In this document: one piece after another, positions 1 to 10,532 of the stretch
Layout: the number at the start of each line of letters is the position of its first letter
Position numbering within the stretch: position 1 is the first letter of the stretch
Position numbers and translations under genes: made by a program
The notes under the pieces: generated by a model
Databases searched by the model: none
Told to the model about the DNA's origin: nothing
Seen by the model: only the letters and a program-made list of their open reading frames with translations
Assembly: GCA_019359435.1 (NCBI GenBank)
Contig: JAHHHI010000071.1
Span: forward strand, 1 to 64,000
Direction: 5' to 3'
DNA length: 64,000 nt
From: Kaiparowitsia implicata GSE-PSE-MK54-09C
Lineage (GTDB): Bacteria > Cyanobacteriota > Cyanobacteriia > Elainellales > Elainellaceae

Positions 1-98
1 CGGTGTCTCAGAAGCTTTGAAGGGAGGAGCGAGGCAATATGTTAGTGGACATCTCGCTGTCGAGCGGTGCAGGGTCGTCTCCTCTCTTTAGTTCCGTC

Positions 99-185
99 TC
101 CCCATAAAGTCGCTGCACCGGAACACTATAAGGTACTGGTTGGGTGGCAAAAGTTATCTACGTCCGGTGAGCTTGGTCGTTATAC
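99..185 (+). other. attC recombination site 1 (degenerate R'' box)
   Basis: The right half is clear. The R' box GTTATAC is at 179-185, preceded by a six-base spacer. The L' arm at 163-172 (TCCGGTGAGC) pairs perfectly with the L'' arm at 112-122 except for one extra G (115), the extrahelical base typical of attC sites. The expected R'' position (99-105) is degenerate. Total length is about 87 bp, like the other three sites. It forms the left boundary of the first cassette. Whatever cassette owned this site lies mostly upstream of the window. Confidence 0.7.
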
Positions 186-288
186 AGCTTGAATTTTGGG
201 TTGTGACGGTAGCTTGAAACAGCTTTGTTGGTGTTCGAGGCTAAGTTATTTCGAGATTGTCGGCAAGGCAAAAACTTCTTTCAATCTC

Positions 289-317
289 TTGACACTCGAA
301 ACGAGTGCATATACACT
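289..317 (+). promoter_or_regulatory. probable marR promoter
   Basis: TTGACA at 289-294 is a consensus -35 element. Seventeen bases later, TACACT at 312-317 can serve as a -10. The -10 lies inside the palindromic operator at 304-317, so a bound repressor would block RNA polymerase. The marR start codon follows at 324, leaving a very short leader. Confidence 0.6.
304..317. promoter_or_regulatory. operator copy 1, near-palindrome upstream of marR
   Basis: AGTGCATATACACT is an imperfect palindrome (AGTG/CACT arms around ATAT). The same 14 bases occur in reverse orientation, with one mismatch, at 804-817 in front of the next gene. The size and symmetry suit a dimeric MarR protein. The inference is autorepression by the adjacent marR product. 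Confidence 0.65.
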
Positions 318-323
318 TAATTC

Positions 324-788
324 ATGGAAAAGCATTCTAACCCAATCAACTCAACTGAATTAGGTCAAGTGGTTTCCTCGTGTGCCTGTTTTAATCTCCG
401 CAAAGCTTCTCGTGTCGTTACGCAACACTTTGATGAAATCCTCAAGCCGAGCGGTTTGCTCATCACTCAATTCACCATCTTGGTGGCGATCGCAAGGGTA
501 AAGTCAGGAACTATCAATGAATTAGCGGAGGTCTTAGTCATGGATCGCACTACCTTAACTCGAAATCTCAAGCCGCTAGAGAGAGAAAAATGGTTAGAAA
601 TTGAGCTTGGTCAAGACAAGCGAACTCGTATTATCAAATTGACCTCTACGGGAGAGATAGCTTTAACAAAAGCGTTCCCCTTGTGGCAACAGGCTCAAAA
701 CGGTGTGGTGGAATTTTTAGGGGAGTCCCGATGGAGTACATTGCTTCTACAATTGGCTGAAGTTACTGAAATACATCATTCACGCTAA
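324..788 (+). CDS. MarR-family transcriptional regulator
   Basis: This is a 154-residue protein of normal MarR length. A winged helix-turn-helix spans about residues 45-110, with the recognition helix near 75-86 (DRTTLTRNLKPLE) and the wing near 98-107 (DKRTRIIKLT). Helices on both sides would form the dimer interface. MarR proteins usually repress themselves and a neighbouring gene, and release DNA when they bind a small ligand or are oxidised. C20 and C22 near the N-terminus could be redox-active, but this is a guess. The ATG at 324 directly follows a promoter/operator. A second operator lies between this gene and the membrane-protein gene 48 bp downstream, so both genes are probably controlled together. 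It is carried on integron cassette A. Confidence 0.92.
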   Translation: MEKHSNPINSTELGQVVSSCACFNLRKASRVVTQHFDEILKPSGLLITQFTILVAIARVKSGTINELAEVLVMDRTTLTRNLKPLEREKWLEIELGQDKRTRIIKLTSTGEIALTKAFPLWQQAQNGVVEFLGESRWSTLLLQLAEVTEIHHSR

Positions 789-794
789 AAATTT

Positions 795-823
795 TTGACT
801 AAACGTGTATATGCACTTATTTG
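795..823 (+). promoter_or_regulatory. promoter and operator copy 2 for the membrane-protein gene
   Basis: TTGACT at 795-800 resembles a -35 element. A weak -10 (TATTTG) lies 17 bp further on. CGTGTATATGCACT at 804-817 is the reverse complement of operator copy 1 with one mismatch, and it sits between the two promoter elements. A possible TTG start at 795 would lie inside this promoter, so I placed the gene start downstream. Confidence 0.55.
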
Positions 824-826
824 GAT

Positions 827-831
827 GGAGG
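827..831 (+). promoter_or_regulatory. ribosome binding site GGAGG for the gene at 837
   Basis: GGAGG ends five bases before ATG 837. It decides the start against the in-frame TTG at 795 and the ATG at 825, both of which precede or overlap it. Confidence 0.7.
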
Positions 832-836
832 TTTTT

Positions 837-1481
837 ATGCTTTCTCAGTCCACTGAAGATCGCACAACCCCAAGGGTTGTTGCAATAAGCTTGTTGCTGT
901 GGTTTTTAGGTGTTGCTGCTGCTGGTCACGCAGGTGTGTTAATTGGCTCTCCGGCTCCTCTCGTTGGCGGATATGTAGTGGGTACAACACTACTGCTCTG
1001 TGCTCTTGGGTTAACCATACCTCCGCTACGAGTGTGGCTGCTTAGTTTGGAACTGCGGTTCCTTGTGCTTTTACACTTCGTACGATTTATTGGCATTGCC
1101 TTCTTAGTGTCCAGCGCTACGGAAGGTGGTTTGCCAGCGATATTTGCTGAACGAGCTGGGTATGGTGATATTTTTGCCGCCATTACTGCACTCGCGTTGG
1201 CTGTTGGATTCCTGCCTGCGACCAGTCAGTTCCGCCGTGGCTTATTGCTGTCTTGGAATGTTGTGGGAGTTGTGGATTTACTTCAGGCTGTCGGTACTGG
1301 AGTTGCGATCCAGTTATCTGGCAGTTCAGCAATGGCTTCAATTGTTACTGCTCCACTGATGTACATTCCGTTTTATTTCGTGCCACTATTAATGTTCATT
1401 CATCTAGTCATCTTTTACCGATTAGCTATCAATGCACTTGAGCCCGAAGGAGCGCAGTTGAACCTAAGTGACAAAGTATGA
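837..1481 (+). CDS. uncharacterised polytopic membrane protein in cassette A
   Basis: This is a 214-residue hydrophobic protein with about six predicted membrane segments (roughly residues 13-34, 43-62, 66-88, 107-126, 132-152 and 176-203). Short charged loops separate them, and the C-terminus is soluble (ALEPEGAQLNLSDKV). I recognise no catalytic motif and no named family. It sits 48 bp after marR and is preceded by its own copy of the operator. It is therefore the likely regulated target of that repressor, perhaps a small-molecule efflux or stress membrane protein. That function is inferred from context only. The start follows the GGAGG at 827-831. Confidence 0.75.
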   Translation: MLSQSTEDRTTPRVVAISLLLWFLGVAAAGHAGVLIGSPAPLVGGYVVGTTLLLCALGLTIPPLRVWLLSLELRFLVLLHFVRFIGIAFLVSSATEGGLPAIFAERAGYGDIFAAITALALAVGFLPATSQFRRGLLLSWNVVGVVDLLQAVGTGVAIQLSGSSAMASIVTAPLMYIPFYFVPLLMFIHLVIFYRLAINALEPEGAQLNLSDKV

Positions 1482-1538
1482 CATCCTAGTTCAGTGGGCT
1501 AGAAACATTCATAGTGTTTGAATCACGTAGCTGACGCA

Positions 1539-1625
1539 GTATAACAATTCGCTTGGAGCGGACTGCCGAAGGATTTTGGTATTAAGTTCAAGGTCACTTA
1601 CAGCCGCTCAACCGGAACGTTGGGC
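1539..1625 (+). other. attC recombination site 2
   Basis: Order of elements: R'' GTATAAC (1539-1545), spacer AATTCG, L'' TTGGAGCGG (1553-1561), a loop of about 42 bases, L' CCGCTCAA (1604-1611), spacer, R' GTTGGGC (1619-1625). The L arms pair perfectly once one G of L'' is left unpaired, which is the extrahelical base of attC sites. R' fits GTTRRRY exactly. R'' is the reverse complement of the R' box at 179, which starts the same cassette. Confidence 0.85.
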
Positions 1626-2239
1626 TGCTTACGTTTTAGGTCATAGCAGAGGGGTGTCTAATGTGCAAATAAACAATACGAAGGAAAGTGACCTAGCTTA
1701 CGTTTTAGAAGCTGAAGGCAATGAAGAGAATTGCAAATACATAATTCCTTGGTCAGTTGAAAGACACCTCCAAGCGTTGAGCGACCATGACACTGCCCAC
1801 CTGATTTTGCAAGACGAAGTAAATGTTGGCTATGTAATTCTCGCTGGGCTTCTTGACCCTAATCAAAGCATTGAGTTTCGTCGGATCGTCATTACAGAGA
1901 AAGGGAAAGGCTACGGAAAAGAAGCAGTTGAGATTATCAAGAAGTTAGCCTTTGAGACTTACCATGCTCACCGATTGTGGTTAGATGTGAAGGCTCAAAA
2001 TTATCGGGCACAATCACTTTATAGTAGAGCAGGCTTTATCGTTGAGGGAACCCTACGCGAATGTCTAAAATCAGGAGATGAATATGAATCTCTGATTATC
2101 ATGTCAATACTGCTGCAAGAATATAAGAAAGACAAATTTGGTTAATTTCAACCGCAGCCCAACAATCCCGTTGCACACCGAACATATGAAGTTGGCTGGC
2201 TGAGTCCAAGAGGTTGTTAGCGACGGGTGAACGGGGTCG
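1620..2239 (+). mobile_element. integron gene cassette B (GNAT acetyltransferase)
   Basis: This is a 620-bp cassette from inside R' GTTGGGC (1619-1625) to inside R' GTTCTGC (2239-2245). Its trailing R'' box (2157-2163, GCCCAAC) is the exact reverse complement of its leading box. It holds one gene in the normal cassette orientation, starting 38 bp after the leading box. Confidence 0.87.
1663..2145 (+). CDS. GNAT-family N-acetyltransferase (cassette-borne)
   Basis: This is a protein of about 160 residues with the GNAT fold. The acetyl-CoA loop is at GKGYGKEA in the middle of the protein, after the strand RRIVI. The later motif NYRAQSLYSRAGF, followed by EGTLRE, is typical of RimJ/RimL- and SpeG-like members. 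The substrate could be an antibiotic, a polyamine or a protein N-terminus and cannot be read from the sequence. I chose GTG 1663 because GAGGGG (1649-1654) lies eight bases upstream; GTG 1654 is an alternative. Any start before 1626 would lie inside the attC site. Single-gene cassettes often carry GNAT enzymes. Confidence 0.85.
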   Translation: MQINNTKESDLAYVLEAEGNEENCKYIIPWSVERHLQALSDHDTAHLILQDEVNVGYVILAGLLDPNQSIEFRRIVITEKGKGYGKEAVEIIKKLAFETYHAHRLWLDVKAQNYRAQSLYSRAGFIVEGTLRECLKSGDEYESLIIMSILLQEYKKDKFG

Positions 2240-2245
2240 TTCTGC
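2157..2245 (+). other. attC recombination site 3
   Basis: R'' GCCCAAC (2157-2163), spacer AATCCC, L'' GTTGCAC (2170-2176), long loop, L' GTGAAC (2227-2232), spacer GGGGTC, R' GTTCTGC (2239-2245). L'' and L' pair perfectly with one extrahelical G at 2173. The site starts 11 bp after the GNAT stop codon. R' deviates from GTTRRRY at two positions, but its complement recurs as the R'' box at 3001. Confidence 0.83.
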
Positions 2246-3080
2246 CGCTTCAGTTAATGGTTATGACAGCGGTTCAAGATTGTCTGTTGGTGTCAGGTGT
2301 TGTGGCAGAATCAAACTATTCAGCGAAGAAAACTAAAATGGAGCGATTTAATTTGCTCCTTACAGCGTGACTGCTCTTTATGGCTATGCTCGAATATACT
2401 TCTCCCCCCATCTGGCTAAATGCTCACGTTCAAGACTCACGCATCACTGTTGGGGAGTACACCTACTTTGATCAGCGCATCAGCTTGGCAATATTTACAC
2501 CTGATGATCGGATTGAGATTGGAAAGTTCTGTTCCTTAGCGAAGAATGCTGTTATTTTTGCTGGAGGAAATCACATCATGACCCGAACAACAACGTTTCC
2601 TTTCAAGTGGTTATCCGCAACATCGGAGCCAGAAGAACGCTACACCGATGCTGCAAATAAGGGTGCAACAGTAATCGGTCATGATGTTTGGGTAGGGTAT
2701 GGGGCTACGATTATGTCGGGAGTCAAAATTGGTAATGGTGCAGTTGTCGGGGCACAATCAGTGGTGGCTAAAGATGTTCCTGCCTATTCGGTGGTGGTAG
2801 GTAATCCAGCCCAGATCATTCGTTATCGGTTTAAACCTGAAACAATAGAGCGGTTACTGGATCTATGTTGGTGGGATTGGGAAGAATCTAAAATTGCAGC
2901 TAATCTAGACTTGTTGTACACCAACCCAGATCAATGGTTAAACGATCTTCAGCTAAAAGAGCCGCAAGGAAATAGGTTAAACCTGGTGGGGATGCCAGCG
3001 GCAGAACACGACGATGGAGCGGACGGTTGAGAAAACTCGTTGGAGATGCGAAAGTTTTTTGCCGCCGCTCATCTTTGCCG
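2240..3080 (+). mobile_element. integron gene cassette C (CatB-like acetyltransferase)
   Basis: This is an 841-bp cassette from R' GTTCTGC (2239-2245) to R' GTTAGCT (3080-3086). Its trailing R'' box GCAGAAC (3001-3007) is the exact reverse complement of its leading box. This is the third consecutive cassette with matched ends. The leader before the gene is unusually long (about 135 bp). It contains the hairpin GGAGC-N10-GCTCC at about 2340-2359. Confidence 0.85.
2380..3030 (+). CDS. CatB/Vat-type xenobiotic O-acetyltransferase
   Basis: This is a 216-residue left-handed beta-helix acetyltransferase. Hexapeptide-repeat segments run from about residue 45 to 145 (IEIGKFCSLAKNAVIF, then VIGHDVWVGYGATIMSGVKI). 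His65 in the loop FAGGNHIMTRTTTFPF matches the catalytic histidine of the CatB family. The motif VVGNPAQIIRYRF closes the helix, as in CatB and Vat. Family members acetylate chloramphenicol or streptogramins using acetyl-CoA, and catB genes are classic integron cargo. Whether this one confers resistance cannot be told from sequence. An in-frame TGA at 2368 makes ATG 2380 the first start. The last 10 codons run into attC site 4, so the C-terminal tail is encoded by the recombination site. Confidence 0.88.
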   Translation: MAMLEYTSPPIWLNAHVQDSRITVGEYTYFDQRISLAIFTPDDRIEIGKFCSLAKNAVIFAGGNHIMTRTTTFPFKWLSATSEPEERYTDAANKGATVIGHDVWVGYGATIMSGVKIGNGAVVGAQSVVAKDVPAYSVVVGNPAQIIRYRFKPETIERLLDLCWWDWEESKIAANLDLLYTNPDQWLNDLQLKEPQGNRLNLVGMPAAEHDDGADG

Positions 3081-3086
3081 TTAGCT
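3001..3086 (+). other. attC recombination site 4
   Basis: R'' GCAGAAC (3001-3007), spacer ACGACG, L'' ATGGAGC extended by GGACGG (3014-3026), loop, L' CCGCCGCTCAT (3062-3072), spacer CTTTGCC, R' GTTAGCT (3080-3086). The arms pair with one extrahelical G and one bulged A. It overlaps the 3' end of the CatB-like gene. Sequence beyond it is a transposase remnant, so the array ends or is interrupted here. Confidence 0.82.
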
Positions 3087-3199
3087 CTCAGCGCTTTGGT
3101 GCTGTCAGTTGGTCGGTGGGTAGGCGATTCGCCCCCAATTGCAACATTTTGGTTCTTCGAGGTTTCGGTCATTGCAACAAGCCCCAAAAGCTTTTGGGT

Positions 3200-3502
3200 C
3201 AGCCGCCCACGTTGAGTCGCGATAGGCTTGGGTCGGCAGTTTGAGGTTCTGAGAGGTGTCGGGGGGCGACGTGCACCAATGTTTTCAGTCCGCTCTGACG
3301 ATATCGGCTCAACCACCGAGACACCGTTGTGCGATGATAACCGCTGATCTCCAGCTAACTGCTCAACACTCGTTGCTTGCCCCGTCTTTAGCCACCACAA
3401 CACCTGCACCTGACTGCGCTGCGAGGCCCGGTGCTATTGGTTCAGCGCTGCTTTTAACTCCTCAGCCGATTCGGTGATATCAATTTTGAGAATGCCAGAC
3501 AT
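3200..3502 (-). pseudogene. IS630-type transposase N-terminal remnant
   Basis: Read on the minus strand from ATG 3502, the protein begins MSGILKIDITESAEELKAAL. It then meets an in-frame TAG at 3434-3436 and continues as QVQVLWWLKTGQATSVEQL. After a +1 frameshift near 3350 it continues as EISGYHRTTVSRWLSRYR. That last part is the helix-turn-helix of cyanobacterial IS630-family transposases. The catalytic DDE part is missing, so the gene is dead. It decays out of recognition toward attC site 4. I saw no terminal inverted repeats. Confidence 0.7.
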
Positions 3503-3737
3503 AGCGCAGACAGGCCATAACGACTACCTCTATCTTTAGCTGATCTTTGGCGAATTTATATAACCTCCCAAGCCGTGCATCCACACGATTGTGACTTGTG
3601 ACGGGTTAATCAAACCACGGCAGAGGAGCACTATGCTTCACACAATGCCCCTTTGTCTATTATTTCCTTTATCAAGCGTGAGTTACTGCAACACGTGCAG
3701 TCTGACTACTAACCCATATATTCTCGTGGCGATCGCT

Positions 3738-4307
3738 CTACCGCACGTCGTTTATGTCCCACAGTTTGTTGGGGGGCACTGGCGGGGTGCTGTCATAGCT
3801 ATCAAAATCTATCAGTGGCTGATCTAAGGCAATCATTAGCCCTTCGCTGGGTGCTTCTGCAAACTCGCCCATGGGCATCCGCGCCTCTGGTGCCATCACC
3901 GTGGAGATAACGCCGATAAATGTTGCGGCGATCGCCATCCCCCCCCACTTGGCCCAGCGACGGGGACGACGCTCTAATTGATCAAACACGCCACTCACCA
4001 CTTGCTCGGCATCCACCGCAGTAGCGGGCTCTGGCTGCGCCACAGCATAGGAGCTAATGCGATGGCGGAGCGACATCAGCCGCGTATGTAACTTCTGTGC
4101 TGTGGTATCAGATTCTAGCCATGCTTCCACTTGGCGACGCTCGCAGGCCGTCACCTCGCCATCCATGTAGGCGCTGAGCAGCTCGAAGCGATCGCGCTGT
4201 GAGCCTGCTAGGACTGGATTCAGCTTGCTCGATTCCAAACGCTCGGTGTCAGACAGTGCGGAGGTATTCACGTCATTCATCGCCGTATCACTATTAAAAT
4301 TCTTCAT
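3738..4307 (-). CDS. anti-sigma factor, partner of SigG
   Basis: This is a protein of about 189 residues. Its N-terminal anti-sigma segment (FELLSAYMDGEVTACERRQVEAWL) is the helical hairpin that grips region 2/4 of ECF sigma factors. One membrane segment follows in the last third (GGMAIAATFIGVISTVMA), then a short Pro-rich outer tail. The HxxxCxxC zinc motif of ZAS-type anti-sigmas is absent (a single Cys). It lies 400 bp downstream of the sigG-like gene on the same strand, matching the sigG/sapG pairing I recall from Synechocystis. The start at 4307 replaces an unlikely TTG at 4328; ATG 4283 is another option. Confidence 0.82.
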   Translation of the reverse strand: MKNFNSDTAMNDVNTSALSDTERLESSKLNPVLAGSQRDRFELLSAYMDGEVTACERRQVEAWLESDTTAQKLHTRLMSLRHRISSYAVAQPEPATAVDAEQVVSGVFDQLERRPRRWAKWGGMAIAATFIGVISTVMAPEARMPMGEFAEAPSEGLMIALDQPLIDFDSYDSTPPVPPNKLWDINDVR

Positions 4308-4707
4308 GAGAACCAGGATTGAACTCAAACGAAGGACATTAGACTAAACCAAGCGCCTAGGCGTGTCCATACAAACTACGTTGATTCTACCCTCAGCATC
4401 GGGTCAACCCACAGTACCCACAGGAAAAACCGAGAATCCTCTGAATTTCTGCATGTGAACTGTGGTAAAACGCTCCTTTGCCTCGAGTATGCTCGTCACG
4501 CGAATCGCCCATCACGGCTGAAGCATTTTTGCGGTGTCGAGGTGATGCCACACATCCCGTTGACGCTGCTGTCAAATAACATCTGCTTAAATAACACATG
4601 TTAAACAGAGCTGACGGAAAGTGCGATCGCCCCTAAGAGAGACTCTGGAACAAGAAGACAATGGCCCGCCTTACGACAGTCCATACGGCAGTCCATACGA
4701 CAGTCCG
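4308..4707. other. gap between sigG and its anti-sigma gene, with a 12-bp tandem repeat
   Basis: No credible gene lies here. Right after the sigG stop codon there are three tandem 12-base units at 4672-4683, 4684-4695 and 4696-4707 (TACGACAGTCCA, TACGGCAGTCCA, TACGACAGTCCG). A GCGATCGC lies at 4623-4630. The 400-bp spacing suggests the anti-sigma gene may have its own promoter. I found no clear terminator. Confidence 0.5.
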
Positions 4708-5409
4708 CTAATCTTCCAAATAGGGTTGCAGTTGAGACTGTAGCCGCTGCCGAGCGCGGGCAATACGCGACTTGACGGTGCCCAGCGAGACTCCGGTGAG
4801 TTCAGCAATTTCTTCGTACGCCATTCCCTCAATCTCCCGCAGCACAATCGTAGTGCGGAAGGCCTCAGGCAAATCGGCGATCGCCTGCTTCAGCTCATCG
4901 TAGAACTCTCGCGTGGTCAGTGCGTCGGCAGGGCCAGGACAATCTGCTGCGATTTCCCAATCCATTTCGCCATCTTCCATGCTACGCGGTGCATCTAACG
5001 AAAGGGGTGGATCGACCCGCTTCCGCTTCCGCAGCTCGTCATAGAACAGATTGGTGGCAATGCGGCTGAGCCAACCCCTAAATTTCCCGGCCTCTTGCAG
5101 CCGCTTCACGTTGCGATAGACCCGAATCCACACTTCCTGAGCCAGATCGGCGCGGTCAGTCCAGTCGGGTGCTAGGTGATACAGCACTCGATCCACATGC
5201 GACTGATAGCGTCGGATCAATTCAGAAAATGCAAGTTTTTCGGGACGTAGCCCCTCTTGGCAGCGCAGAATCAAATCGTAATTTGACAGGCGATCTGCCG
5301 ACAACTGCGCCTGTGACGCCTCTGCCTGTGCCGCAGCCCAAGAAGCAGGAATGGAATTGCTCATTGACAACGCTTGTCTCTCAGTTGATACCTTCCTAGA
5401 CGCGTCCAT
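4708..5409 (-). CDS. sigG: ECF-type RNA polymerase sigma factor, SigG-like
   Basis: This 233-residue group 4 sigma factor has region 2 at about residues 60-130 (AFSELIRRYQSHVDRVLYHL, then DLAQEVWIRVYRNVKRL). Region 4 is at about 170-228 (LPEAFRTTIVLREIEGMAYE, then GVSLGTVKSRIARARQRL). It would direct RNA polymerase to a stress regulon and be held inactive by the membrane-anchored anti-sigma factor encoded just downstream. The name rests on resemblance to cyanobacterial SigG and the anti-sigma neighbour. The start is uncertain: ATG 5409 gives the full length, while ATG 5364 would remove 15 poorly conserved residues. Confidence 0.85.
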   Translation of the reverse strand: MDASRKVSTERQALSMSNSIPASWAAAQAEASQAQLSADRLSNYDLILRCQEGLRPEKLAFSELIRRYQSHVDRVLYHLAPDWTDRADLAQEVWIRVYRNVKRLQEAGKFRGWLSRIATNLFYDELRKRKRVDPPLSLDAPRSMEDGEMDWEIAADCPGPADALTTREFYDELKQAIADLPEAFRTTIVLREIEGMAYEEIAELTGVSLGTVKSRIARARQRLQSQLQPYLED

Positions 5410-8997: not shown

Positions 8998-10475
<1,478 letters not shown>

Positions 10476-10532
10476 AAATCATATCACCAATGACGGGCGC
10501 AAAGCTACGAATTTTAAGCAAACGTGAATTCG

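Follow-up and report, generated by a model that had tools for sequence, protein, structure and literature searches.

A probable CALIN of three gene cassettes behind a putative IS110/IS1111-family element in Kaiparowitsia implicata GSE-PSE-MK54-09C

Locus features

The DNA considered here, called the window below, is a stretch of 64,000 nucleotides from the cyanobacterium Kaiparowitsia implicata GSE-PSE-MK54-09C (positions 1 to 64,000, forward strand, of contig JAHHHI010000071.1 in assembly GCA_019359435.1; contig C78 below). Its left end carries an array of integron attC sites which is very probably a cluster of attC sites lacking an integrase (CALIN) with three cassettes. A preliminary description made from the letters alone had placed four attC sites and three cassettes at 99-3086 and had supposed a cyanobacterial host. 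The sites lie where they had been placed, except that site 1 begins at about 102 rather than 99 and has no intact R'' box, positions 1-101 being part of an insertion sequence (IS). The three cassettes stand as described, the first of them holding two genes. A cyanobacterial host agrees with 121 HIP1 motifs (GCGATCGC) in the window, about one being expected, and with cyanobacterial best matches. The assembly is a draft of 109 contigs with a completeness of 99.9% and an estimated contamination of 4.4%. The features are listed below; bit scores are those of the attC covariance model R1, and ORF stands for open reading frame.

1-101, strand not given: putative IS110/IS1111-family element end, in the R'' box of attC site 1; contig break
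102-185, + strand: attC site 1, its R'' box lost to the IS, R' GTTATAC (179-185); 52.9 bits, untrained site
180-1619, + strand: cassette 1, matched ends GTTATAC and GTATAAC, cut from G179^T180 to G1619; recurs in L032
324-788, + strand: cassette 1 gene a, MarR-family regulator, 154 aa (PF12802, E 1.2e-7)
837-1481, + strand: cassette 1 gene b, ORF for a hydrophobic protein of about 214 aa; counterpart ORF after MarR in L032 and L031
1539-1625, + strand: attC site 2, R'' GTATAAC, R' GTTGGGC; 83.4 bits, training-set site
1620-2239, + strand: cassette 2, matched ends GTTGGGC and GCCCAAC
1660-2145, + strand: cassette 2 gene, GNAT acetyltransferase, 161 aa (PF13302 and PF00583)
2157-2245, + strand: attC site 3, R'' GCCCAAC, R' GTTCTGC; 42.8 bits, untrained site
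2240-3080, + strand: cassette 3, matched ends GTTCTGC and GCAGAAC
2380-3030, + strand: cassette 3 gene for a 216-aa hexapeptide-repeat acetyltransferase, a relative of the Vat/CatB group (PF00132)
3001-3086, + strand: attC site 4, R'' GCAGAAC, R' GTTAGCT; 78.6 bits, training-set site
3081-3556, + strand: start of a fourth unit with no attC of its own detected, running into an IS remnant at 3263-3561
3738-5409, - strand: conserved chromosomal flank, ORF 3738-4328 for a putative anti-sigma factor (a label from position only) and an extracytoplasmic function (ECF) sigma factor at 4708-5409 (PF04542, PF08281)

The crossover points are G179^T, G1619^T, G2239^T and G3080^T. Four attC sites lie within 3 kb with no intI nearby, where two or more within 4 kb define a CALIN. 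The head of the array is lost at the contig end, which falls inside an attC.

Gene b of cassette 1 had no match in Pfam or NCBIfam. The MarR protein matches CARF profiles weakly in PADLOC, most likely through a shared DNA-binding domain. The cassette 3 acetyltransferase scores 160 bits against NF000311, under the curated cut-off of 300, and the stop codon of its gene falls within attC site 4. Three separate arrays have the stretch 3079-3556 after their last attC, starting at the crossover point each time: in the window, at C77:119350-119849 (91% identity over 3060-3556) and at C18:427-617 (97% over 3079-3269). The IS remnant within it is repeated on C80, C93, C76 and C8, and at about 73% in the related genome G008. 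Elsewhere in the window a thiamine pyrophosphate (TPP) riboswitch is found at 10374-10476 (- strand, 73.3 bits).

attC model and matched cassette ends

Model R1 was built from an alignment of 24 attC-like sites of the same genome with the canonical R/L pairing imposed; window sites 2 and 4 were in the training set, sites 1 and 3 were not. A search with an attC covariance model, the check proposed beforehand, recovered all four sites above background and nothing else in the 64 kb, the held-out sites 1 and 3 with E values of 9e-12 and 5e-9 in the window search. The covariation score of the imposed structure was 0.364, against 0.136 for shuffled alignments, and every slid control was far lower. 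Paired cells made up 86% of the alignment versus 74% in shuffles. The paired L arms noted earlier were borne out, with 93% of L''/L' cells paired. Each window L'' arm has two extrahelical bases, G then A on the top strand, and not the single G that had been described. Folding of the bottom strand as single-stranded DNA was clearly better than in shuffles at site 2 (z -2.4) and site 4 (z -1.8). Rfam gave no match at gathering scores at the four window attC sites.

Only the best candidates per genome were scored with R1, so that its attC counts are lower bounds. The whole genome holds at least 74 sites at E <= 0.5, and the 72 which are fully readable form 37 clusters, 22 of them single sites. 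Sites were found by R1 in 38 of 40 related genomes; the two genomes without any match indicate that false positives are rare.

All three exact end matches of the window cassettes (GTTATAC/GTATAAC, GTTGGGC/GCCCAAC and GTTCTGC/GCAGAAC) are as first reported, and their being beyond chance holds genome-wide. Ends matched at 7/7 positions in 20 of 35 neighbouring attC pairs, compared with 6.1% of random pairs (P = 7e-16), and at 6/7 or more in 27 of 35 (P = 3e-11). This statistic is independent of the structure of R1. It bears directly on whether the four sites belong to a dispersed palindromic repeat family, of the repetitive extragenic palindromic (REP) or miniature inverted-repeat transposable element (MITE) kind, and merely resemble attC. 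Such a family would account for attC-like sites being numerous, dispersed and similar within the genome. However, it has no reason to produce matches between neighbouring R' and R'' boxes far above chance, the ORFs between the sites share one orientation, the boundaries of insertion and absence fall exactly at G^TT, and relatives have intI genes beside such sites. A repeat-family origin was rejected because of the matched cassette ends and is exceedingly improbable.

In studied attC sites the extrahelical position has a G on the bottom strand. In 64 of the 72 readable sites of this genome the main extrahelical L'' base is a top-strand G, that is, a bottom-strand C. The top-strand G at this position is possibly a feature of the lineage.

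Insertion sequence at attC site 1

Window positions 1-98 are repeated at six contig ends, the other five copies being identical or 98% identical. At five of the six (C78, C93, C9, C6 and C65) an attC follows directly after the element end, with the common junction GTCTCCCCATAA, after which the attC spacer and L'' arm resume. The related genome G008 has eight copies of a homologous element (end 77% identical over 106 bp), and a full copy there encodes a protein with DEDD_Tnp_IS110 (PF01548) and Transposase_20 (PF02371). The same attC junction is found in the five own copies and in G008, G009 and G024. In the K. implicata genome only the ends of the element are visible; its transposase is not in the contigs examined and is known from G008.

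On these sequence comparisons, the element at 1-101 appears to behave like the IS1111-attC group, matching it in its fixed place within attC sites. The presence of an IS in site 1 explains both the broken R'' box and the assembly break at window position 1. A group II intron was considered as well and rejected: Rfam gave no match at gathering score on five loci with the element end, and the expected GTT is missing at the junction.

Integron integrase and companion gene

The integron integrase IntI was sought with a hidden Markov model (HMM; integron-integrase profile TIGR02249) and with tblastn on fetched loci. TIGR02249 found no full-length intI in the assembly and nothing on the window contig C78. 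The absence of a visible integrase next to the cluster, as first described, stands: the three broken intI copies lie on C85, C7 and C104 only. All three adjoin attC arrays in the usual divergent layout. The C85 remnant has the N-terminus fused to the last 97 residues in another frame, and those on C7 and C104 retain the first 46 residues only. Of the 40 relatives, 29 carry at least a fragment of IntI, and in 17 it scores above the curated cut-off of 265 bits; an intact intI with an attC on the other strand, at a distance of 1-1.5 kb, was found in G009, G039 and G001. Arrays without intI share attI-like leaders (C85 and C34, 77% over 180 bp; C14 and C97, 88% over 239 bp; C77 by eye). Since such leaders are common to different arrays, several attI types coexist in the genome.

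A small ORF of 69 aa (MSSEIKALVRSHQ...), here called the companion gene, lies in a block of about 449 bp which is present in 22 copies with 80-94% identity (for example C85:4058-4264 and C104:1437-1885). On the intI side a properly oriented attC lies within 5 kb of 11 copies and a contig end within 5 kb of 7; on the opposite side the corresponding counts are one and one. The gene thus marks 11 to 18 array heads, and since 11 of its 22 copies head arrays, a major part of the arrays in this genome comes from copies of the platform. The ratio of nonsynonymous to synonymous substitution rates (dN/dS) is 0.09 over 19 copies with a mean dS of 0.32. In both G009 copies the ORF follows an intact intI at a distance of 330-360 bp. 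The protein had no match in Pfam, NCBIfam, PHROGs or PDB and no relative in plasmid and viral collections; its predicted structure is mediocre (pLDDT, the predicted local distance difference test score, 71) and has no significant match in PDB.

The complete chromosome of G002 carries the same deleted and frameshifted intI five times, residue 40 being joined to about residue 242, with a companion gene after each. The five copies adjoin five attC clusters at about 1.004, 1.685, 1.964, 3.586 and 4.234 Mb (L173-L177), so that the dispersal of arrays is not an assembly artefact. A sixth copy is full-length with an internal stop. To judge from these sequences, platforms would either have multiplied within the chromosome, or several would have arrived and then decayed; that all five copies share one deletion speaks for multiplication. 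It is proposed, tentatively and with somewhat doubtful standing, that the platform (attI, intI and companion gene) multiplies in the chromosome, that most copies have lost intI and still head arrays fed in trans, and that the companion gene, being under purifying selection after loss of intI, may have a role in recombination, in its control or in platform movement.

The same data bear on whether the window array belongs to a complete working integron, with an intact intI in unassembled sequence, upstream of the window or elsewhere, which still moves cassettes. Consistent with this, the window starts at a contig end within an attC, the seven companion-gene copies near contig ends meet them within 3.5 kb on the array side, and intact intI is common in relatives. 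Yet at the completeness of this assembly the HMM found three remnants only, and several arrays with a visible platform have no intI at all. A working integron is accordingly improbable, and an array now without its own integrase is preferred.

Evidence of cassette movement

The platform copies on C104 and C7 share 93% identity over 872 bp. C7 carries 2.99 kb extra, inserted exactly at attI between ATAATAAGTT and GTT and ending in attC (C104:1009 versus C7:39459-42449); beyond the insertion the old first cassette (TTATGCCGC...) continues. The first cassette of the C104 array (C104:236-1009) presumably encodes two small proteins, one of which we take to resemble BrnT toxin (MEYEWDEAKRLANLRKHGIDFVDVL). 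As C104 and C7 share the same truncated intI, the C7 insertion probably used IntI in trans.

Cassette 1 of the window recurs in an Oscillatoriales metagenome-assembled genome (locus L032) with the same two genes, the ends GTTATAC and GTATAAC and different neighbours, and there too an attC half-site lies just upstream of it. Contiguity of the intervals in relatives, with no cassette-like gain and loss, had been named as evidence that would count against cassettes; cassette 1 was instead found beside other neighbours. Precise gain or loss at G^TT is thus seen between C104 and C7 at attI and for cassette 1 in L032, and directly for neither cassette 2 nor cassette 3.

On C102 a lone attC closes a cassette between two operon genes, which we take, by sequence impression, to encode an AIR-synthase-like protein and a glycosyltransferase. 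These genes are 893 bp apart on C102 and 18 bp apart in G014 and G008, and the cassette is also absent in G005, G015 and G007. Its left end falls between CCCTT and GTTATGCC, 14 nt beyond the stop of the upstream gene, and the R'' box of this cassette is degenerate (5/7 match). A search by pairs of flanking genes gave an empty site for C102 only; C95, C56, C12 and C72 are uninformative, since their flanking genes are not neighbours in relatives.

As to how the window array came to its locus, it may have arrived by off-target (attG) insertion of single cassettes, and not as the head of an old attI platform. Single sites make up 22 of the 37 attC clusters, and the C102 cassette interrupts an operon intact in relatives. 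In relatives the sigma and anti-sigma genes flanking the window array are adjacent as well, and no attC was found beside the pair in the loci fetched. Off-target insertion is established elsewhere (Loot 2024, cited in PMC12444791; PMC10127599). Against this, the contig does not show the left end of the window array, and the share of companion-gene copies that head arrays makes platform copies a major source. Arrival by off-target insertion has a chance a little short of even, and an old platform head would be about as likely an origin.

Interpretation

In integrons generally, IntI cleaves attC on its folded bottom strand and links cassettes to attI or, at a low rate, to other G-TT sites. By analogy, each window cassette would have moved as a circle, joined at the G^TT of its attC by IntI acting on the folded bottom strand. 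The array would have been built while an active IntI was present in the lineage, or by IntI in trans; IntI would later have been reduced to the broken copies of this genome. With intI broken, the window array should be static unless a foreign IntI acts. An attC-targeting IS110/IS1111-family element would have entered site 1, hiding the left end of the array.

Three points weigh against this reading. R1 is not an independent detector of attC, since the sites it was trained on were first picked out by their resemblance to those of the window. Folded as single-stranded DNA, sites 1 and 3 do no better than shuffled sequence. Draft contigs often break at arrays, and an intact intI could therefore be unassembled. 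Independent support for attC comes from the agreement of the cassette ends, from the covariation and from the recovery of the held-out sites 1 and 3. The window array is very probably a CALIN of three cassettes, built under an active IntI in the lineage or by IntI in trans, now frozen or mobilized by a foreign IntI only, and with its left end behind an attC-targeting IS; past IntI activity on the array, its present inactivity and the route to the locus are parts that we infer.

On these data integrons are a standing feature of a cyanobacterial family and not a rarity (attC in 38/40 and full-length intI in 17/40 related genomes). The genomes present stages of integron evolution: platforms that are intact, in relatives; arrays still headed by deleted intI copies; arrays without a platform; and lone cassettes in ordinary operons. 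Comparison can now address the origin of CALINs and the natural rate at which cassettes settle at non-integron sites. The companion gene, if functional, would be an integron component so far overlooked.

Comparison with known systems

CALIN elements were reportedly described by Cury et al. in 2016, and the IS1111-attC group is said to have been described by Tetu and Holmes in 2008 and by Post and Hall in 2009. CALIN elements are treated in IntegronFinder 2.0 (PMC9024848), and in Xanthomonas they occur at seven chromosomal loci across species (PMC12444791). Target choice in the IS1111-attC group is RNA-guided in the members tested (PMC11187229). Such arrays had been called little described in cyanobacteria; that part needs qualifying, as reports of integrons and attC sites in this phylum existed by 2008 (PMC2426708) and a Cyanobacteria-specific attC model has been available since 2021 (PMC8352920). 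The literature already covers CALINs, attC sites in cyanobacteria, attC-targeting IS elements and off-target insertion (PMC9024848, PMC8352920, PMC2426708, PMC11187229, PMC10127599, PMC12444791). The literature searched, which left out most subscription papers, gave no description of such integrons as near-universal in a family, of multiplied dead platforms or of the companion gene; the last two may be new.

Like a CALIN, the window array has more than one attC site, ORFs in its cassettes and no neighbouring intI; it differs in its setting, a genome with about 37 clusters, 22 of them single sites, and only broken intI copies. With the cyanobacterial integrons of earlier reports (PMC2426708, PMC8352920) it shares the phylum and the presence of intI and attC. 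The element at site 1 resembles the IS1111-attC group in its presumed IS110/IS1111-type DEDD transposase family and in insertion at one end of attC sites, whereas it is cyanobacterial, its own copies are known from their ends and its transposase from the relative G008. The single C102 cassette, which has G^TT at its boundaries in an ordinary chromosomal location, would be like an attG insertion as PMC12444791 reports it from Loot et al. 2024; in contrast, it is a natural case, with relatives in which the operon is uninterrupted.

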